A stretch of 64,000 bases of DNA, from NCBI RefSeq assembly GCF_024345835.1, contig NZ_JAGQBW010000002.1:62001-126000 (forward strand), given 5' to 3'. The position numbers and the translations under genes are program-made. Below are positions 2,677 to 9,142 of this stretch, piece by piece (the first letter of the stretch is position 1; the number at the start of each line of letters is the position of its first letter). Below the pieces are notes generated by a model. The model did not search any database and had not been told where the DNA came from. It saw only the letters and a list, made by a program, of their open reading frames with translations. Source of the stretch: Synechococcus sp. HJ21-Hayes. Lineage in GTDB: Bacteria; Cyanobacteriota; Cyanobacteriia; PCC-6307; Cyanobiaceae.

Positions 2677-3017
2677 GCGAGCAGGAGCTACAGCAACGGA
2701 TTCGGCTGCAGCTGGGCTCAAGTCCAGTGCGGCTGTGGCGCAACAACGTCGGTGCGTTGCGGGATGAACGCGGCCGGCTGGTGACCTATGGGTTGTGCAA
2801 AGGCAGCAGCGACCTGATCGGCCTGCGCCAGGTGCTGATCGGCCCGGAGCACCTGGGCCAAACCTTGGCGGTGTTCAGCGCCATCGAGGTGAAGGCCCCG
2901 AAGGGAAGGCTGCGGGTGGAGCAGCGCTCGTTCCTTGAGCTGGTGGAACGCTTTGGTGGCTACAGCGGCGTTGCCACGAGTGTCGAAGAAGCCGCGCGGG
3001 TGCTGAGGCTCAGCTGA
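2673..3017 (+). CDS. VRR-NUC domain nuclease
   Basis: The 114-residue protein fits the small stand-alone VRR-NUC family of PD-(D/E)XK nucleases that act on branched DNA in phages. The visible pattern is a basic N-terminus, KGSSDLIGL containing the metal-binding Asp, and then SAIEVKAPKGRL supplying the E-x-K catalytic pair, followed by a Q-containing helix. The start was set at GTG 2673, which overlaps the helicase stop as GTGA. A TTG nine residues upstream keeps the same frame. Pairing with an SF2 helicase suggests joint work on replication or recombination intermediates. Confidence 0.8.
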   Translation: MSEQELQQRIRLQLGSSPVRLWRNNVGALRDERGRLVTYGLCKGSSDLIGLRQVLIGPEHLGQTLAVFSAIEVKAPKGRLRVEQRSFLELVERFGGYSGVATSVEEAARVLRLS

Positions 3018-3146
3018 TCAGGCCGGTGAGGCTTGGCTCAGGCCCCGTAACTGTCACCGCTGATCGAGCTCATGATGCCCGTAACAGCCTGTCACGAAGC
3101 CGACCATTGGGGGTTGGTGCTTAGCAAGAAGCACGGGATACTTTAA

Positions 3147-3166
3147 GGGTTCCCAAACGGTAACCC
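3147..3166. promoter_or_regulatory. Operator-like imperfect dyad directly before the repressor start
   Basis: The sequence GGGTTCCCAAACGGTAACCC has matching ends (GGGTT/AACCC) and ends one base before the ATG at 3168. A near-identical copy, differing at four positions, lies at 3942-3961 at the head of the rightward operon. With no room for a ribosome-binding site, the mRNA may be leaderless, as lambda cI mRNA is. The operator role is inferred from position and repetition. Confidence 0.6.
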
Positions 3167-3167
3167 T

Positions 3168-3851
3168 ATGCAAAGCCTGCAGGACAAGCTGGATGCGGCC
3201 CGAGTGCAGTTCGGCAAGTTCCTGCGGAACTGGCGCAAGAGCAACGACTGGTCCGTCACCACCGCCCAGGACTGGGCCAAGGCCTGCCCAGGGCTGATCC
3301 CCTGGCCGCTGCGGGTAGCCGGCGGCCAGTGGGGCAACCTGGAGAACAGCAAGGTGTTGCAGCCCCAGCCCAGCACCTTCATCCAGCTGGCGGTGCTCAA
3401 CGAGTGCCTGGTGCAAGAGGAGCGGGGCGCGATCAAGGACCGGTTGCTGCGCGATCGGGTGCAGCGAGCCAGGCCAGTGCTTCATGCCGACGGCCGCCCC
3501 TGGGGCGCTGAGGACTGGTTCGCCTGCTACATCGGCAAGCTGGAGGGGCCCGCCGAACTCTGGCCATGCCAGGAGGAGATCGACGCCGAGGCTGAGACCA
3601 AGCGGCTACGCAGCCTGTTCGATCAGGCCCTGGAACTAGTCGGGCTGCGGCCGGTGTCCGCCGCGATGCAGGTGTTGCGCAAGGCGGGAGATCTGCCGAT
3701 GGAGCAAGTAGTGGCGATCGAGAACGCCCTGTTTGCCGGGGAGCGGCTGGGCCCGGCCCTCGTCCCGATCGCCCGTGAGGCCTTGCATGCCTGGGTGAAG
3801 GAGGTGGCCCCGGAGCTGGAGCCCAGCGAGCCTCTCAGCAAGGCGGCTTAA
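3168..3851 (+). CDS. Probable XRE/CI-type repressor of the integrated element
   Basis: The 227-residue protein has at residues 14-60 a pattern resembling a divergent Cro/CI helix-turn-helix: FGKFLRNWRKSNDWS, then a second helix, then QWGNLEN where XRE proteins have the recognition helix and S.IE. A long region without recognised motifs follows; no Ser/Lys LexA-type autocleavage motif is obvious. An operator-like dyad abuts its start, and the same dyad heads the downstream operon. That is the layout expected of an autoregulated element repressor. The fold assignment is tentative and the role rests on context. Confidence 0.5.
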   Translation: MQSLQDKLDAARVQFGKFLRNWRKSNDWSVTTAQDWAKACPGLIPWPLRVAGGQWGNLENSKVLQPQPSTFIQLAVLNECLVQEERGAIKDRLLRDRVQRARPVLHADGRPWGAEDWFACYIGKLEGPAELWPCQEEIDAEAETKRLRSLFDQALELVGLRPVSAAMQVLRKAGDLPMEQVVAIENALFAGERLGPALVPIAREALHAWVKEVAPELEPSEPLSKAA

Positions 3852-3879
3852 CAGGCGCAGAGGATGCCAAAAAGCAGCA

Positions 3880-3903
3880 GGTAGCGCCGTCGCGTGCGCT
3901 ACC
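3880..3903. repeat. 8-bp inverted repeat after the repressor gene
   Basis: GGTAGCGC and GCGCTACC are separated by eight bases, 28 bases after the repressor stop. Plus-strand sequence after the stem is A-rich, not T-rich, so it is not a classic rightward terminator. It could be a weak terminator, an mRNA end-stabilising hairpin or a further protein site upstream of the second operator. Confidence 0.5.
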
Positions 3904-3941
3904 AAAAAAGCATTTATGCGGTACCGGAATACCTGACTTAA

Positions 3942-3961
3942 GGGTTCCCGAATGGATAACC
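3942..3961. promoter_or_regulatory. Second copy of the operator-like dyad, at head of the recombination operon
   Basis: The sequence GGGTTCCCGAATGGATAACC matches the copy at 3147-3166 at 16 of 20 positions. The match extends upstream through TTAA and a nearby ATAC. It overlaps the first possible start codon (3952) of the rightward operon. Binding by the adjacent repressor would block transcription or translation of the whole run 3952-8764. That function is inferred. Confidence 0.6.
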
Positions 3962-4332
3962 GCAGGGGTAGCGTTGGCATCCTTCTTTGCGGAAAGGTGA
4001 ATCAACGCGAACGAGTCTTTACGGCTTCCCACTCCTTGCCCCCTGCTTCCAAGGGGTTGCAACGCTCCGATCTGGAGCACTACATCCTGATCCAGGCCTC
4101 CTTCTCCGCCGCCCTGGCCCAATGGCAGCAGCGTTGGCGGGCGATCACAACCGACTCACTGGCGGCACTAGCCGGCCACGGCATCGCCATCAGCTTCCGG
4201 CAGAGCATTTGCGGGAGCTACGTGGCAACGCTGCTGCACTCCGGCGGCGGCGGGATTGATTCAGGTCTCTGCCCCTCGCTGCTAGAAGCGCGGCGCATCG
4301 TCCTGGGCTATGGCCTGGAGGATTCCCCATGA
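3952..4332 (+). CDS. Unknown protein, first gene of the element's recombination operon
   Basis: The frame encodes 126 residues from ATG 3952, but that ATG lies inside the operator. Translation may be leaderless, or may start later at GTG 3997 or TTG 4057. From about residue 36 onward the protein looks structured, with helices around LEHYILIQASFSAALAQWQQRWR and a C-terminal LLEARRIVLGYG. No known domain was recognised. Its stop overlaps the next start as ATGA, so it is probably coupled to the RecE-like gene. The 5' end is uncertain. Confidence 0.5.
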   Translation: MDNRRGSVGILLCGKVNQRERVFTASHSLPPASKGLQRSDLEHYILIQASFSAALAQWQQRWRAITTDSLAALAGHGIAISFRQSICGSYVATLLHSGGGGIDSGLCPSLLEARRIVLGYGLEDSP

Positions 4333-5177
4333 GCAATTTCTCTCTGGCGGAGTATCACCGCCATCCCGCCTGGTCCCCCACGGCGCTCAAGGCTGCAGTG
4401 ACAGGCACGATGCGGACCTGGAGCCATCGTTTCGGGCCAGGGGCCGCAAAATTCGTTCCCTCGGCAGACATGGTCAAAGGCGATCTGGTCGATGCCCTGC
4501 TGACGCCCCCCTTTCGGATTGATGACCGGTTCGCGGCGTATCGATCAATCGCCCGCAACACCAAGATCGGCGCCGCCAACTGCGCAGAAGCGGAAGCTGC
4601 CGGACTGACGCCAGTCAGCGTCGAGATGGTGGAGCAGGCCCAGCGCATCGCTGATGCCCTCCACGCCGACCCAGTGGTGGGAGAGGTGCTGGCGGCCCTG
4701 GACCCGTCGCTCAGCCAGCAGCCCCACTTCTGGCAAGACGAAGCGGGCCGGCACTGCCGCTGCCTCCCAGATGTGGTCACCAGCGACGGCCGGCTGTTTG
4801 ACCTCAAGAAGACCCGCAGCGCTGTGCCGCGGAAGTTCTACTGGCAGGCCAAGGACCTGGCCTACGACCTGCAGCTGGCCCACCTGGCCCTGGGCCATGA
4901 GGACCGCCATGGGCAGCCGCCGCTCGAGACCGGTGTGATCGCCTTTGAGTGGCCTAGCGATCTGGCCGCCCCGATCGACTGCAGCCTGCTCATCTTTGAT
5001 GGGCAAGACCTGGAAAAAGGTCTGCAGCGGCGGGAGGAGGCCTTCCGGCGGATCGCCGAATGCCAGGCCACTGGCAGCTGGCCGAGTCACGGGCGCCAGG
5101 CATTCCGTCCTGTCTTTCAAGATTTCAGCCTTCCCGAAACCATAGGCATTGATTTGGATTCCATTGACCTCTTCTAA
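4329..5177 (+). CDS. RecE-like PD-(D/E)XK exonuclease
   Basis: The 282-residue protein matches the phage exonuclease VIII / PDDEXK-like family often paired with RecT. Near residue 39 is a conserved AKFVPSADMVKGDLVDALL helix. The catalytic core follows, with CLPDVV supplying the Asp and LFDLKKTR supplying D-x-K near residues 157-160. Then comes a Q/Y-containing helix (DLAYDLQLAHL). The enzyme should resect double-stranded ends to leave single strands for the annealing protein encoded next. Neighbours overlap on both sides (ATGA before, TAATG after). Confidence 0.8.
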   Translation: MSNFSLAEYHRHPAWSPTALKAAVTGTMRTWSHRFGPGAAKFVPSADMVKGDLVDALLTPPFRIDDRFAAYRSIARNTKIGAANCAEAEAAGLTPVSVEMVEQAQRIADALHADPVVGEVLAALDPSLSQQPHFWQDEAGRHCRCLPDVVTSDGRLFDLKKTRSAVPRKFYWQAKDLAYDLQLAHLALGHEDRHGQPPLETGVIAFEWPSDLAAPIDCSLLIFDGQDLEKGLQRREEAFRRIAECQATGSWPSHGRQAFRPVFQDFSLPETIGIDLDSIDLF

Positions 5178-6520
5178 TGAACGACTCCACCCTCTCCACC
5201 AGTTCAGGTCCATCACCTTCCTCAGCCCTGGCCCCAGCGACAGACACCCTGCAGGTGTTCAGCGGCATCGCCGCCTTTGACGCCGCCCAGCGCATGGCCA
5301 AAGCCCTGTGCTCCTCAACTCTTGTTCCCAAGGAGTACCAGGGGCAGCAGGGGCTGGCCAACAGCTTGATCGCCCTGGAGATCGCCGGCCGCATGCGCCT
5401 CTCACCGCTAGTGGTGATGCAGAACATGACGCCGATCCACGGGCGACCGACCTGGAGCAGCAAGTTCCTGATCGCCACGGTTAATGCCAGCGGCCGCTTC
5501 TCGCCGCTGCGCTTTGTCTTTGACGCCAAGGAGCAGCCCAGCAGTTGCTACGCGGTAGCCACCGATAAGGCCACCGGTGAGGTGCTTGAGGGGGAAACCA
5601 TCACCCTGGAGCTGGCCCGCAAGGAGGGCTGGTGGAGCCGCAAGGACCGCCAGGGCAACGAGACCAGCAAGTGGCAGACGATGACCGGCCAGATGCTGCG
5701 CTACCGCGCCGCGGTCTGGTGGTCCAACGTCTACTGCCCGGAGATCGCCCTGGGCTTGATCACCCAGGAGGAGGCGCTCGACATCGAGGCGGTCACGGTC
5801 CGAGAAGCTGGCAGGGCCAGCATTACTGGAGCTGAAATCCAGGCGCCACTTCAGGCCGCTGCGACATTGGGCCAGGCCGCTGAGAAGCCCGCTGGGCCAG
5901 CCGCCACGGCGCCGGAAAAAACCACCGCCCGGCGTACTGCAGCCAGCCCCCGCGCTGCCGCTGTACCCAATCCCTTACGCCCTCGCGAAGACAAAATGAT
6001 TCCGCCGGAAACCCAAAACAGCGCCACTGGGCGTATCGAGCCGTCCCATGGGGGAAGCGCTGAGGCAGATCAAGAGGTCATCGACGCCGAAATTGTGAGC
6101 ACCAGCGGGGCTGCACCGGAGCCGGCCACCCCAGCTGAGCACCAAGGCGAGCAGCAAACCGGGCAGCAGGAGGCCCTATCGCTGCAGGCCAGCGAGAACC
6201 CTGCCGCAGCAAACCAGCCAGCACCGCGGAGAAGCAGGAGCCAGGCCGCTGCTGCCTCGGCTCCAAGCCAGGCTCCAGCTCAAGAGGCTGCCCCAGCTCC
6301 AGAACCTGAATTGAATCCGGTGGAGGTGGGCCTCCGCCAGATCCCACACATCGCCACCGTGCTGGAGCTCGAGCGCGCCTACGGACGCGTCAACCAGCTG
6401 CTCAGCGCGGGCCAGATCAACGACGAGAACGCCGAGCGGCTCTGGAGCGCGATCTCCAGGCGCCGCCGGCAGCTTGAAGACTCCGAGAGCACCCAACAAA
6501 GCGCGGGGGCGGGGACATGA
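5177..6520 (+). CDS. recT: RecT-family single-strand annealing protein
   Basis: The 447-residue protein has a RecT core at residues about 30-215: MAKALCSSTLVPKEYQG, GRMRLSPLVVMQNM, GRPTWSSKFLIATVN and WQTMTGQMLRYRAAVWW are typical family landmarks. The second half (220-375) is a long Ala/Pro/Gln-rich low-complexity linker. A short helical C-terminal domain follows (QIPHIATVLELERAYGRVNQLL). RecT proteins anneal homologous single strands in phage recombination. The position between RecE-like nuclease and SSB confirms the module. The long linker and extra C-terminal domain are unusual; most RecT proteins are about 270-330 residues. Confidence 0.88.
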   Translation: MNDSTLSTSSGPSPSSALAPATDTLQVFSGIAAFDAAQRMAKALCSSTLVPKEYQGQQGLANSLIALEIAGRMRLSPLVVMQNMTPIHGRPTWSSKFLIATVNASGRFSPLRFVFDAKEQPSSCYAVATDKATGEVLEGETITLELARKEGWWSRKDRQGNETSKWQTMTGQMLRYRAAVWWSNVYCPEIALGLITQEEALDIEAVTVREAGRASITGAEIQAPLQAAATLGQAAEKPAGPAATAPEKTTARRTAASPRAAAVPNPLRPREDKMIPPETQNSATGRIEPSHGGSAEADQEVIDAEIVSTSGAAPEPATPAEHQGEQQTGQQEALSLQASENPAAANQPAPRRSRSQAAAASAPSQAPAQEAAPAPEPELNPVEVGLRQIPHIATVLELERAYGRVNQLLSAGQINDENAERLWSAISRRRRQLEDSESTQQSAGAGT

Positions 6521-6762
6521 GCACCTCCCCCCAGAAGCCGCGGCCACTACGCCAGCGGATCGGCAACCACAAGAAGACCATCGCCATGAACAACGACACC
6601 TTTGAGCGGGTCGATGCCTTCGCCCGCAGGCACAACATCACCTGGAGCGGGGCGCTGCACGAACTGGTGCGCACCCATCCGCTCATCGGCCTGCCGTCAC
6701 TGCTGGCAGTTCAGGAGCGCATCAAGGCCCGCACCGGCTCGACGCTCGAGGTGGAGGCATGA
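6517..6762 (+). CDS. Small protein with helix-rich, RHH-like C-terminal half
   Basis: The 81-residue basic protein overlaps both neighbours by ATGA. Residues 23-50 (AMNNDTFERVDAFARRHNITWSGALHELV) resemble the strand-helix-helix of ribbon-helix-helix proteins. The match is not strong enough for a firm assignment. It lies between recT and ssb, so it could regulate or assist the recombination module. No specific function can be given. Confidence 0.6.
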   Translation: MSTSPQKPRPLRQRIGNHKKTIAMNNDTFERVDAFARRHNITWSGALHELVRTHPLIGLPSLLAVQERIKARTGSTLEVEA

Positions 6763-7295
6763 GCATCAATCTGATCGTGCTGGTCGGCAATGCCGGCCGG
6801 GATCCGGAGCTGCGCTTTTTTGAAACCGGCAGCTGCGTCTGCGAGTTCACCCTGGCGGTGAACCGCCCGCCACGCGACGGCCAGCCCCAGGAGCCGCTCT
6901 GGGTGAACTGCAAGGCGTGGGGCAAAACCGCCCAGGTGGCGGGGGACTACCTGCGCAAGGGCAGCAAGGTGGCGATCGTCGGCCGGCTCGATTTCGAGCA
7001 GTGGAGTGACCGCAGCAGCGGTGAGATGCGCAGCAAGACCCTGGTGGTGATCGACCGCCTGGAGTTCTGTGGGAGCAAGAACGGTGCGCAGCAGATGGAA
7101 GGAGCAGCCGACTTGGCTGCCTTCTCCGCTGGCCAGTCCGTCAGTGGCTCGGCGTCTCAGACAGGAACCGCCGCTCCAGCGGGCTCCCGCAGTTCGAGCG
7201 CGGCGACATGGGGCGCACCCGCTGGAGTGCCAGCGCCGGCGGCCCCGGCCTGGTCCACCAGCGGCCCCATCAGCGACGAGGAGGTGCCCTTCTGA
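6759..7295 (+). CDS. ssb: Single-stranded DNA-binding protein
   Basis: The 178-residue SSB has an OB fold at residues 1-108: SINLIVLVGNAGRDPELRF, then FTLAVNR, WVNCKAWGKTAQVAGDYLRKGSKVAIVGRL and the closing TLVVIDRLEF. A flexible Ala/Ser/Pro-rich linker ends in the acidic tip DEEVPF, the conserved peptide that recruits partner enzymes. In this operon it serves the element's RecE/RecT module. It is probably distinct from the host's housekeeping SSB, which is not in view. Confidence 0.93.
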   Translation: MSINLIVLVGNAGRDPELRFFETGSCVCEFTLAVNRPPRDGQPQEPLWVNCKAWGKTAQVAGDYLRKGSKVAIVGRLDFEQWSDRSSGEMRSKTLVVIDRLEFCGSKNGAQQMEGAADLAAFSAGQSVSGSASQTGTAAPAGSRSSSAATWGAPAGVPAPAAPAWSTSGPISDEEVPF

Positions 7296-7570
7296 TGAGC
7301 CAGCACACCAACGTCCGCTTCGGCGGCAGGGGAAAGAGTCCCCAACTGCCGGCCTTCTGCCGCACCCGCCAGAGAAGCACCACCACCGTGGGGCTCAGAG
7401 CGCTGCAGCAGCTGCAGTGGCTGCTGTGGCTGCTGCTGGCCATTCAGCTGAGCACCCTGCTGTTGGTGCTCGCCGGCCCGGTGCCAGCTCCCCGGAGACC
7501 GCAGGCAGGAGCACCCCTCGCCACCACTGGCGCAGCTGGCGCCACTGTCCTCTCGCCTTCTCAGCTATGA
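7295..7570 (+). CDS. Small single-pass membrane protein, unknown
   Basis: The 91-residue protein begins at ATG 7295, sharing one base with the ssb stop (TGATG). It has a basic N-terminus, one hydrophobic helix at about residues 40-64 (QWLLWLLLAIQLSTLLLVLA) and a Pro/Ala-rich tail. Its stop overlaps the BRO gene start as ATGA. A membrane protein inside a recombination operon is unexpected. Superinfection exclusion or a lysis-related role are possible, but nothing in the sequence decides. Confidence 0.6.
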   Translation: MSQHTNVRFGGRGKSPQLPAFCRTRQRSTTTVGLRALQQLQWLLWLLLAIQLSTLLLVLAGPVPAPRRPQAGAPLATTGAAGATVLSPSQL

Positions 7571-8376
7571 GCAGAACAACCGCTCTGGTGCCCTACCCGT
7601 TCGAAGGGCACCGCATTCGGGTCAGCACCGATGAGCACGGTGAGGCCTGGTTCGCCGGGGCCGATGTCGCTGGCGCCCTTGGCCAGCTCACGATCGCCCG
7701 GGCTCTGGCCAGCCTGCGGGAAGAGGAGCAGTGCCTCTATTCCCAGGAGGGACCCGGCAGCCAGGGCTGCACCCTGGCCCTGATCAGTGAAGGCGGCCTA
7801 CTGCGTCTGCTGCTGCTGGACGACAGCCAGACGGCCTGGCGAATGCGGCGCTGGCTCACCCAGGAGCTGCTGCCCGCCATCCAGCGCAACCAACAGGTCA
7901 AAGCAAGGGCCCACTTATCAGGCCCGGCTGGGGAAAAGATCCAGACCGCGGCTGCGGTGCTGCGGCTTGCCGAGGAGATCATCGAGCTCACCGGCGTCGG
8001 GTACTCCGATGCGCTCCTCGCTGCCATTGAAGACATCGAGACCAGCACCGGCCTCCACCTGGCCCCACTGCAACAGCTCCTGCGCGACAGGCACTCTGCG
8101 GACTCAGCTCATCGGCCCGCTCAGCCAGGTCGTGCGCCAGTCGAGGCACGCCTGGATGCAGAGCAACTGGCCGAGCGGCTGGGCCGCACGATCAGGGATA
8201 TCAACCGCCGGTTGGCGGCCTGCGGCCTGCAGGTGCGCAATGACCTCGATGACTGGCAGCTCACCGCAGTCGGCTGCGACTGGGGTATCGCCCTGCCGCG
8301 CTGCAGCCGCGGCGAGCACCGGCAGCAGCTCGTCTGGGATCCAGCGGTGGTTGCGTTGCTGCAGGGGGAAGGGTGA
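7567..8376 (+). CDS. BRO-N family antirepressor-like protein
   Basis: The 269-residue protein starts with a BRO-N domain (residues 8-100): a strand with F-E-G-H-R-I-R-V, then EAWFAGADVAGALG, CTLALISEGGLLRLLLL and a helix ending RRWLTQELLPAIQ. The C-terminal half is a separate domain with helix-turn-helix character (AEQLAERLGRTIRDINRRLAACGLQ). Proteins of this class act in phages as antirepressors or DNA-binding regulators. Antagonism of the element's own repressor (3168-3851) is the natural hypothesis. Confidence 0.78.
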   Translation: MSRTTALVPYPFEGHRIRVSTDEHGEAWFAGADVAGALGQLTIARALASLREEEQCLYSQEGPGSQGCTLALISEGGLLRLLLLDDSQTAWRMRRWLTQELLPAIQRNQQVKARAHLSGPAGEKIQTAAAVLRLAEEIIELTGVGYSDALLAAIEDIETSTGLHLAPLQQLLRDRHSADSAHRPAQPGRAPVEARLDAEQLAERLGRTIRDINRRLAACGLQVRNDLDDWQLTAVGCDWGIALPRCSRGEHRQQLVWDPAVVALLQGEG

Positions 8377-8480
8377 TGTCAAACAGCATTGCTCTGGTCG
8401 GACTACCTCCCGAGGGGCAGTGCGGCCTGGTGGCCCAGAAGTCGAATGTGAATCCCCGCTGTTGCAGGAGGGGCCGGTAA
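8376..8480 (+). CDS. Possible 34-residue micro-ORF linking BRO and excisionase genes
   Basis: An ATG at 8376 shares its A with the upstream stop (TGATG). The ORF runs 34 codons to a TAA whose last base is the A of the next ATG (TAATG). This double one-base linkage fits the pattern of every other junction in the operon. The peptide is basic and contains paired cysteines near its end. It may be a true peptide or simply a bridge for translational coupling; coding is not otherwise supported. Confidence 0.35.
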   Translation: MSNSIALVGLPPEGQCGLVAQKSNVNPRCCRRGR

Positions 8481-8764
8481 TGGTCTCTCCAAGAGTTCGT
8501 CACAGCCGTCCGCAGCCCCCTGCCAAGCCAATCGAACTAGCCCATACCCAGGAATGGGCTGATGCACGATCGACGGCTCCGCTTCTCGGTGTGAGCGAGA
8601 AAACCCTGGGTCGCTGGCGCAAGGCCGGCTTGTTCCGGGCTGGGGTGCATTGGCGCCGCAAATTCCCAAGCAGCAATTCACCAGTTCTGTATCACCTAGA
8701 GCGCTGTAACGAAGCGATGAATGAAGCGACCGCCCGCACGCCCCATCTCCTCGAAAAGAACTGA
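8480..8764 (+). CDS. Excisionase-like helix-turn-helix protein
   Basis: The 94-residue protein has a winged-helix/MerR-like segment at residues 32-62: ARSTAPLLGVSEKTLGRWRKAGLF, followed by a wing with GVHWRRK and then NSPVLYHLERCNEAMN. Small proteins of this kind next to integration sites act as recombination directionality factors (Xis). It is the last gene of the operon and the closest to the tRNA-Pro gene, with phased repeats between them. Control together with recT/ssb suggests that excision and replication switch on together. Confidence 0.65.
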   Translation: MVSPRVRHSRPQPPAKPIELAHTQEWADARSTAPLLGVSEKTLGRWRKAGLFRAGVHWRRKFPSSNSPVLYHLERCNEAMNEATARTPHLLEKN

Positions 8765-8787
8765 GCCTTTCAGGCACAGCAACGAAA

Positions 8788-8825
8788 GCCCTGGTTCAGT
8801 TCGTTACTGGACCAGGGCCTTTTGT
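8788..8825 (+). terminator. Strong Rho-independent terminator of the element operon
   Basis: A 13-bp stem, GCCCTGGTTCAGT (8788-8800) with ACTGGACCAGGGC (8806-8818), contains one G-T pair and closes a TCGTT loop. CTTTTGTT follows on the plus strand. It lies 23 bases after the excisionase stop and cleanly ends the operon. Confidence 0.85.
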
Positions 8826-8954
8826 TGGTGTGGGCCAGTGACGCCCTGAAAGGGGTCCAGCAGGGCTTGTAGGGAATCAAGCCGCCAGTCCTGCTGGTTT
8901 TGCTGTGTCCCGCTGCCGGGACTTGAATCTTGGGGAAGGCGGTGCCTGATGGCT

Positions 8955-8974
8955 TTGCCCACATCTTGCCCACA
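8955..8974. repeat. Helically phased TTGCCCACA direct repeats beside tRNA-Pro (candidate att arm sites)
   Basis: Two exact copies of TTGCCCACA (8955-8963 and 8966-8974) are offset by 11 bases, one helical turn. They lie 30 bases from the tRNA 3' end, inside the element. Spaced repeats in this position are typical of integrase arm or excisionase sites. That role is inferred. The rest of 8826-9003 shows no gene. Confidence 0.5.
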
Positions 8975-9003
8975 AAGCAGGGGGCCTATCGGTGAAAAGT
9001 CAA

Positions 9004-9077
9004 TCGGGGCGACAGGATTCGAACCTGCGACCTAGTGCTCCCAAAGCACCCGCGCTACCAAGCTGCGCCACGCCCCG
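9004..9077 (-). tRNA. tRNA-Pro (anticodon UGG)
   Basis: Read on the minus strand, the 74-base cloverleaf has a CGGGGCG/CGCCCCG acceptor stem, D-arm GCGCAGCTTGGTAGCGC, an anticodon loop CTTTGGGA giving UGG, and a T-arm with GGTTCGAATCC. The discriminator base is A and CCA is not encoded. The 3' end faces the mobile element, as expected when an integrase uses the 3' half of a tRNA gene as attachment site. Confidence 0.95.
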
Positions 9078-9142
9078 TTACCTGGGAACCATAGCGGGCC
9101 ATGGCGCAGATCCCTCGTCCCAACTGCGCTTACCACTGGCGT

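Follow-up and report, generated by a model that had tools for sequence, protein, structure and literature searches.

Why does the gene of a predicted membrane protein open on the stop codon of a gene for a single-stranded-DNA-binding protein (SSB), within nine closely packed frames beside a tRNA gene? The question is raised by a stretch of 64,000 nucleotides of Synechococcus sp. HJ21-Hayes (G000:C12:62001-126000, that is, part of contig C12 of genome G000), which is referred to as the window; coordinates without a contig name are positions in it. The chain of frames at 3997-8764 probably serves a temperate phage, which sits in a tRNA-Pro gene, as its early (lytic-side) operon; in this operon the membrane protein, here named mem, would be made in proportion to SSB and would act at the membrane. 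The reading as a prophage early operon is based on the attachment-site (att) repeats, the phage genes, the gene order, the overlaps, the terminator, and the conserved synteny. The early operon as a whole is ordinary, and the new part is mem together with the SSB-mem pair.

Layout of the Operon

Nine co-directional frames follow one another in the window. They are joined by eight junctions, all of which are overlaps of 1 or 4 bases, and a strong terminator stands after the last frame. The frames are the following:

3997..4332, + strand: gene A, 111 aa, with a conserved start; helix-helix-beta-beta-beta-helix domain, possibly annealing-protein-like or like a double-stranded-RNA-binding domain (dsRBD)
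4329..5177, + strand: RecE/ExoVIII-type exonuclease (recE); Pfam DUF3799 PDDEXK 6e-10, PHROG exonuclease VIII 8e-35
5177..6520, + strand: RecT single-strand annealing protein (recT) with a long variable linker; PHROG RecT 2e-52, Pfam RecT 23.9 bits at a cut-off of 24
6517..6762, + strand: 81-aa ribbon-helix-helix (RHH)-like protein; model with a strand at 21-24 and helices at 26-38 and 43-53, moderate confidence
6759..7295, + strand: OB-fold SSB (ssb) with the tail DEEVPF; Pfam SSB 1e-27, matches to solved SSBs
7295..7570, + strand: mem, predicted single-pass membrane protein, 91 aa, with a hydrophobic segment; new family
7567..8376, + strand: Bro-N antirepressor-type protein (BRO); Pfam Bro-N 4e-11, PHROG Ant families
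8376..8480, + strand: micro-open reading frame (micro-ORF), 34 aa, with a candidate Shine-Dalgarno sequence of xis at 8466-8471
8480..8764, + strand: excisionase-like helix-turn-helix (HTH) protein (xis); HTH_17 1e-3 and DUF1233 putative excisionase 4e-3, both below cut-off; PHROG excisionase 8e-4

The ATGA junctions are located at 4329, 6517, 6759, and 7567, the TAATG junctions at 5175-5179 and 8478-8482, and the TGATG junctions at 7293-7297 and 8374-8378. An earlier note on this DNA had described the chain with a 1- or 4-base overlap at every junction, and all eight junctions are present in the sequence. Eight such overlaps in succession are unlikely to occur by accident. As a yardstick, two annotated early regions were used, with the pairs tallied by hand from tables; overlaps of 1 or 4 bases join 7 of the 27 neighbouring pairs in the early region of phage Pan5 and 6 of 20 in that of P22. 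Tight gene chains are usual in phage early operons, which indicates that the run of eight is unusual while its kind is usual.

The signals at the two ends of the chain are as follows:

8788..8828, + strand: intrinsic terminator, a 13-pair stem at 8788-8818 followed by CTTTTG
3969..3974, + strand: candidate -10 element TAGCGT (TANNNT), conserved in the alignment of the near group

The stretch 8770-8830 folds at -36.1 kcal/mol (z -6.5), and none of 200 shuffles folded equally well, which agrees with the terminator that had been proposed for the end of the chain. No sigma-70 consensus promoter was found in 3000-9100 of the window.

The Predicted Membrane Protein Family and Its Junction with the SSB Gene

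The mem protein is characterized by a hydrophobic segment with a near-invariant glutamine inside it, an LPAF motif (LPAFxR), and a basic N-terminus. A strong hydrophobic segment, preceded by more positive charge than follows it, is present in each of the 45 distinct mem proteins tested, and in 44 of them the glutamine lies inside this segment. A profile built from 16 members and run on 300 Cyanobiaceae genomes, which are the genomes surveyed throughout, found 97 sites in 55 genomes. The family therein marks a widespread prophage group, and no phage isolate among 50,697 phage records matches it: neither mem (queried with the relative at L106) nor gene A, the 81-aa protein, or the repressor has a match in these records at E up to 1. 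Pfam gave no match for any of the 16 members at E 1, NCBIfam none for the window mem and one relative, and PHROG none for the window mem and 3 relatives. Outside the Cyanobiaceae, a phylum-wide draw yielded no mem, since both positives among its 292 entries belong to the Cyanobiaceae. Three more mem sites in the same operon type are present in the window's own genome (G000:C36:78615, C38:46279, and C9:3984), and several related prophages or remnants may reside in this one cell.

The corresponding profile of the 81-aa protein found 87 sites in 51 of the 300 genomes. A relative of this protein is encoded 413-718 bases upstream on the same strand at 76 of the 97 mem sites, and mem lies downstream of 76 of the 87 81-aa sites.

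The junction between ssb and mem occupies the following positions:

7275..7297, + strand: SSB tail, candidate Shine-Dalgarno sequence, and stop-start joint, GACGAGGAGGTGCCCTTCTGATG; AGGAGG at 7279-7284

The word AGGAGG lies within the DEEVPF codons, ten bases before the start of mem, and the joint reads TTC-TGA-TG. The mem start is tied to the preceding stop by this one-base joint (TGATG) in 92 of 96 loci. All 10 viral contigs have it too, and in 3 of these the protein encoded in the ssb place, hereafter the slot, is 100% identical to one already counted. The 97 mem sites comprise 30 sites (loci L122-L151), 16 tied to earlier loci by place or by identical match figures, and 51 counted as 50 further loci; the joint is present in all of the 30 and the 16 and in 46 of the 50. 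Among the exceptions, L219 is cut by a contig end, and L205, L216, and L221 look degenerate. Among the 92 joints, the upstream frame of L201 is broken after 23 residues and belongs to no slot family, and four others are contig-end pieces.

The slot is filled by three families that have no blastp link to one another at 1e-5, namely a family of unknown kind in 25 loci, a gp2.5-like family in 19 (PHROG 2e-14 for one member), and the OB-fold SSB in 12. These 56 slot loci correspond to 47 distinct mem/slot pairs, as some places are held twice. The window ssb shows the two features of a bacterial-type SSB, an OB fold and an acidic tail ending in Pro-Phe. Among the last ten residues of the 56 slot tails, 4.2 are acidic on average; the final three residues are VPF (34), APF (11), AAF (6), ELF (4), or VPY (1). 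At L116:2960-3613 and in its relatives, the slot protein has 217 aa, its six aligned copies are 93-98% identical, and its tail is again acidic and ends in Pro-Phe. How far the 81-aa gene overlaps the slot gene depends on the family (mostly 11, 8, or 4 bases), and the overlap between the slot gene and mem stays at 1.

Interpretation of the Junction

The following course of events is proposed. The protein encoded at 3168 would repress the operon through a site common with its own promoter. On induction, a single transcript would supply RecE and RecT, SSB, the RHH-type regulator of 81 aa, mem, the antirepressor (BRO), and finally the excisionase, by which excision and recombination would begin together. 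A ribosome that finishes SSB would re-start on mem by way of the stop-start joint and the candidate Shine-Dalgarno sequence in the SSB tail codons. The yield of mem would then be proportional to that of SSB, and mem would be situated at the membrane next to SSB-coated phage DNA, where it may hold this DNA through the SSB tip or shield it. The fixed junction appears to sharpen the question of a mem-SSB partnership; a partnership, dosage control, or a recombination boundary could each underlie a fixed joint, and the sequence does not discriminate between them.

A bolder proposal, which we consider unlikely, is that mem is the founder of a class of phage membrane proteins that are made by re-start at the end of SSB, read the SSB tip, and tie or hide SSB-coated DNA. 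The SSB tail would in that case do three things at once, as protein tip, Shine-Dalgarno sequence, and stop-start joint, and whole unrelated SSBs could be exchanged while mem is kept because only the tip would be its partner. If it is true that mem reads the SSB tip, this would mean a membrane role for a phage SSB or the shielding of recombination intermediates.

The mem tree requires 5 changes of slot family (minimum 2), and a supported clade (95/89) around the window mem holds all three families. This clade is what would be expected if the SSB-mem joint were only a recombination boundary, that is, a short linker for the exchange of SSB modules, with mem having an early function of its own that is unrelated to SSB. 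Such functions could be host takeover, superinfection exclusion, or protease control, like those of the small proteins of the lambda/P22 PL operon; in P22, the small host-takeover genes kil and c3 are found beside erf. The joint sequence is also short and very similar across the families. However, a boundary does not require that the overlap be exactly one base in 92 of 96 loci while the joint between the 81-aa gene and the slot varies by family, and it does not require SSB-like tails, which are retained in all three slot families. The boundary explanation is a serious possibility, although its chance falls short of even.

Several observations weigh against the preferred reading, in which the amount of mem follows that of SSB and mem works beside it. 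The slot families are strongly clustered on the mem tree (5 changes compared with a shuffled mean of 21.4, and 0 of 200 shuffles as low), and most mem lineages keep one slot family, so that few swaps are shown. The window mem, its twin aside, is closer to mem proteins beside unrelated slot genes than to those beside homologous SSBs, and recognition of the SSB body is disfavoured for this reason. For the largest slot family, that of 217 aa, searches of Pfam, PHROG, NCBIfam, and the solved chains detected no homology to SSB or gp2.5, with a profile that is shallow because the six aligned copies are near-identical; its reading as an SSB would be based on place and tail. The tail in L007 has only one acidic residue in the last ten, which is the lowest value. 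For 99 joints, which were chosen for the stop-ATG overlap and used for this count only, a Shine-Dalgarno word of at least four bases was found in 94 (AGGAGG in 51, a five-mer in 19, a four-mer in 24, and none in 5), and these are raw counts; in a genome rich in G+C, glutamate codons make words of this kind more likely. The TGATG joint is a common form of gene packing, and short linkers acting as recombination joints could keep it. A Bro-N or KilA-N gene directly follows mem in many loci, where a link of mem to the switch is possible. Finally, relatives of RecE, RecT, and SSB outside the Cyanobiaceae have no mem match beside them.

Gene Order among Relatives and Module Exchange

The survey of relatives covered the 300 genomes and 15 loci from named records. 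RecT of the window type is present in 14 of the 300 genomes, including the window's own. Those Cyanobiaceae relatives whose loci are long enough have the order repressor, A, recE, recT, 81-aa gene, ssb. In the near relatives mem follows ssb, with one gap at L045, where no mem frame was found after ssb. After mem, a BRO-type gene is present in the window, L054, and L042, and xis is present in several loci. In the Cyanobiaceae relatives with this RecT, gene A, the 81-aa gene, and mem are retained, and BRO and the micro-ORF are variable.

The recT linker of low complexity (window 5800-6330) varies among the relatives, and the separate C-terminal end is similar. Between recT and the 81-aa gene, an extra frame of 70-137 aa is found in nine loci (L039-L041 and L043-L048). 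In L039 (11329-11715), L040, L041, L043, L044, and L045 this frame has 128-137 aa and no firm family match; it is absent from the window, L054, and L042.

Farther away, the viral contigs L008-L012, locus L053, and genome G227 (L030) contain relatives of RecE, RecT, and SSB, and nothing in them matches A, the 81-aa gene, or mem; other small genes lie between recT and ssb in L008, L009, L011, and L012. The viral contig L007 has a weak relative of the 81-aa protein (E 5e-5) and mem in place, and its A is unmatched. Conservation of the gene order in related genomes is found in part: the near Cyanobiaceae keep A, the 81-aa gene, and mem, apart from the gap in L045, and the distant contigs, locus, and genome show no match to any of the three, an outcome that the earlier note had named as refuting its idea.

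The complementary case is given by 16 distant 81-aa loci, hand-picked from 73 such sites. All 16 have a repressor relative upstream and the 81-aa gene, and 15 have mem nearby; in the sixteenth, L115, a mem site lies about 4 kb further on. No match to RecE, RecT, or the OB-fold SSB was found within 2.5 kb in any of them. Their order is one protein of 239-270 aa in the place of RecE/RecT, the 81-aa relative, a protein of about 190-220 aa, and mem; the protein before mem is gp2.5-like in one group of these loci and has no match in another. The unknown small proteins had been suggested as candidate partners of RecT or SSB, or as anti-defence factors. For the 81-aa protein and mem, partnership with RecT was rejected as the reason for their presence and is disfavoured, because they stay where RecE, RecT, and the OB-fold SSB are unmatched. 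It appears that the repressor, the 81-aa gene, and mem form the constant part and that the recombinase and SSB modules are swapped, and the operon provides a test case for module exchange, with unrelated SSB-slot genes between two kept neighbours.

Prophage Context

The features at the tRNA end of the element are as follows:

9003..9047, no strand assigned: att core, 45 bp; identical copy at C12:4164-4208
9004..9077, - strand: tRNA-Pro(TGG), integration target
8955..8974, + strand: two TTGCCCACA repeats, candidate integrase arm sites; the same pair at C12:4302 and 4313

The att repeats, whose core is the last 45 bases of tRNA-Pro, are 66.8 kb apart (C12:4164 and 71003), and TTGCCCACA pairs flank both copies. 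An integrase gene lies beside the far att copy (C12:3947-5596, PHROG 6e-6). The phage genes of the element include the major head protein (7e-54), TerL (1e-71), and the portal (4e-18), and also a scaffold, a primase, and a UmuD-like protein. Judged from these genes and repeats, the element is a temperate prophage of about 67 kb in tRNA-Pro with its integrase at the far end. The earlier note had recognized a co-directional recombination and excision operon beside tRNA-Pro that contains a membrane protein and other unknowns and ends at a terminator, and this description stands. Its designation as a self-contained cassette has to be given up, as it is one operon of a prophage whose int gene is at the other end.

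At the integrase end, G000:C12:6823-8517 contains Gam-like and recombinase/DNA-repair-type genes, the latter being Rad52-like by our reading, and two annealing proteins may thus be encoded in the prophage. On another contig, at G000:C23:5979-6040, the att region and its xis-side flank recur as a 92% copy, which is perhaps the end of another element. In L042, xis, the att core, and a related integrase stand in a row. Further copies of the att core occur in G195:C5:114747-252812 and in contigs C13, C49, C60, and C69 of G280, which suggests tandem elements at one tRNA-Pro in these two genomes.

The DISARM genes drmD, drmMI, drmA, drmB, and drmC are located at G000:C12:19795-36827, inside the prophage and to the left of the window, and a small PDC-S09-type gene with a partner frame lies between them. 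Genome G195 holds a near-identical operon with an integrase that is 98% identical and uses the same tRNA; no match to DrmB was found in this genome, and DISARM is probably prophage cargo for this reason.

SSBs and annealing-type proteins can trigger some host defences. The presence of DISARM in the same prophage, and of unrelated slot families beside closely related mem proteins, would fit a role of mem as a membrane anti-defence or exclusion factor that is co-made with SSB, the swaps of SSB family being an escape from host sensing. However, mem has no match in Pfam, PHROG, or NCBIfam, the only places where known anti-defence proteins were sought, and swapping of SSB modules may occur in phages anyway; we regard this role as quite unlikely.

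The copy of the operon in G195 also bears on whether the chain is a decayed remnant without a working function. Decay would account for the four joints missing among the 50 further mem loci, the short upstream frames in L184, L201, L202, and L211, the change of frame of recE in L043 and L047, and the frames resembling transposases, as identified by eye, elsewhere in the element. In recT, ssb, and bro, amino-acid changes relative to the twin are about as frequent as silent ones. However, none of the nine frames is interrupted in the window or in the G195 copy, whose proteins are 90-99% identical to those of the window, and the changes in the repressor, recE, 81-aa, and xis genes fall mostly at third positions. 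Decay is thus a very improbable explanation of the chain.

Putative Repressor, Operator-like Sites, and the Likely Start of the First Gene

The region before the operon contains the following features:

3168..3851, + strand: putative repressor, 227 aa, directly preceding the operon; HTH read by eye
3143..3166, no strand assigned: operator-like site, TTAAGGGTTCCC...GGTAACCC, before the repressor gene; 12-mer common with 3938-3949, conserved in the alignment
3938..3961, no strand assigned: operator-like site before the operon, which includes the non-conserved ATG 3952

The repressor gene precedes the operon in those Cyanobiaceae relatives whose locus covers that stretch. The protein itself has no Pfam or PHROG match, and a distant relative matches a PHROG transcriptional repressor at E 0.01. 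Its profile matched only repeat and designed proteins among the solved chains (E 0.009 and worse), and these matches were taken as chance.

The sequence TTAAGGGTTCCC precedes both the gene at 3168 and the frame at 3952. The 12-base word common to both upstream sites has p 0.005 in 200 two-base-block shuffles, which supports, within the window, the operator that had been placed before the chain. When 30 loci were tested singly, the shared word reached p < 0.05 in only 5, namely the window, its near twin L054, L048, L050, and L111, and the operator-like site in the remaining loci of the 30 was identified by eye and from the alignment. Taken by itself, the ten-base core AAGGGTTCCC is no rare word in the window, with 5 matches at no more than 1 mismatch compared with 3.8 expected.

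The first frame had been drawn from 3952. This start was abandoned, as ATG 3952 lies inside the operator-like site and, of 16 aligned loci, none but the window and its near twin has it; in L042, L043, and L044 an upstream start is excluded, since start codons are missing there and a stop intervenes. The near group shares a GTG or ATG at the place that corresponds to 3997 of the window. Because ATG 3952 is not conserved and upstream starts are excluded in three relatives, the first frame is most likely 3997-4332, with GTG 3997 as its predicted start.

Gene A

Gene A was found in 14 of the 300 genomes, 13 of which also carry RecT of the window type; in the fourteenth, G103, it lies about 700 bases from a contig end. 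Its model has a predicted local distance difference test score (pLDDT) > 90 over the core. Foldseek gave no match at E 0.001 or better. The top structural match is Gp77 (9y6u, RAZR:Gp77 complex) with Z 7.1, and the next is at 4.9; dsRNA-binding domains are at 4-5 and RAD52 at 3.6, and weak Erf entries appear among the viral structural matches (E 0.13-0.22).

These matches suggest, tentatively, that gene A encodes a small annealing-type protein (Rad52/Erf/Gp77-like) that works with RecT or backs it up, a proposal that we would doubt sooner than adopt. It is in line with the longer A-like proteins, which occur where RecE/RecT are undetected and whose C-terminal domain is also present in the recombinase-type protein encoded by this prophage (probability 98.5). 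However, a Z below 8 may reflect a common arrangement, and the dsRNA-binding domains come next. The link between A and the long A-like proteins is also weak (E 0.002, probability 14; profile searches E 0.02 at best), and P22 Erf is unmatched: membership of A in the Erf family was rejected at probabilities of 0.6 and 1.5. A sequence link to SECphi27 was sought in 30000-51800 of its unannotated record, and none of note was found in this part. The annealing-type fold of gene A is a lead only. Searches of the solved chains gave one chance match for gene A by sequence (E 0.39) and one designed protein for the long A-like profile (E 0.25). No publication was found on RAZR with Gp77, or on RAZR with phage and portal.

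Putative Small Regulators and Excisionase-like Protein

There is moderate evidence that the 81-aa protein is an RHH DNA-binding protein. Its model has the RHH order of elements at a mean pLDDT of 64, one of 11 relatives matches Pfam RHH_5 (8e-4, below cut-off), and weak Foldseek matches include MatP, Arc, and CopG (E 0.9 and above). Its profile yielded only chance matches against the solved chains.

Of the 10 near relatives whose loci extend beyond ssb, 2 have the BRO gene. Among the loci searched, three contain the micro-ORF, namely the window, its twin in G195, and G082, where it has 13 extra in-frame residues and keeps both one-base joints. To provide the Shine-Dalgarno sequence for xis may be its whole role. 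The same type of xis is present in all four loci with the tRNA-Pro att core, at 99% identity to the window protein in L054, 74% in L048, and 64% in L042. Other tRNA genes lie 1.7-2.7 kb beyond the operon in L040, L041, and L046 (tRNA-Lys; another xis type, 38-39%) and in L047 (tRNA-Ser; no xis match). A rule by which the xis type follows the tRNA was rejected, as those tRNA-Lys and tRNA-Ser genes are only possible att sites.

Comparison with Known Systems

The operon is not described in the available parts of PMC6337551, PMC9716671, and PMC10696648, nor in the other literature found, and no publication was found on translational coupling of an SSB with a transmembrane protein in a phage. The prophages phiSynAce1 and phiSynAce2 of Synechococcus CS-601 are likewise integrated phage elements in a picocyanobacterium; they have 8.2 and 18.2 kb and, according to the available part of the report, no DNA-synthesis genes (PMC6337551). 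The Pseudanabaena phage Pan5 and the Pseudomonas phages phi297/AUS531phi have a homologous RecT, with 45-46% identity over the N-terminal part, but gave no match to A, the 81-aa protein, the repressor, or mem in the search of the phage records mentioned above.

A parallel to the control genes is the immI region of P22, where Arc, an RHH protein, stands beside the antirepressor Ant, so that a small regulator and an Ant-type protein form one control unit. Here, in contrast, the 81-aa and BRO genes lie within the recombination operon with ssb and mem between them, and the regulatory role of the 81-aa protein is putative.

The operon as a whole resembles the PL operon of lambda and P22 (in P22, c3-kil-arf-erf-abc1-abc2 ... 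xis-int). It differs in having RecE/RecT instead of Red or Erf, and in the position of int, which is outside the operon, beyond att and behind the terminator, while xis is the last gene; no SSB-mem pair is annotated in the stretch of P22 examined. The two are alike in their early recombination genes, small accessory proteins, overlapping frames, and an xis near att, and, as predicted here from the genes, an exonuclease and an annealing protein are placed in one early operon as in the lambda-type PL operon.

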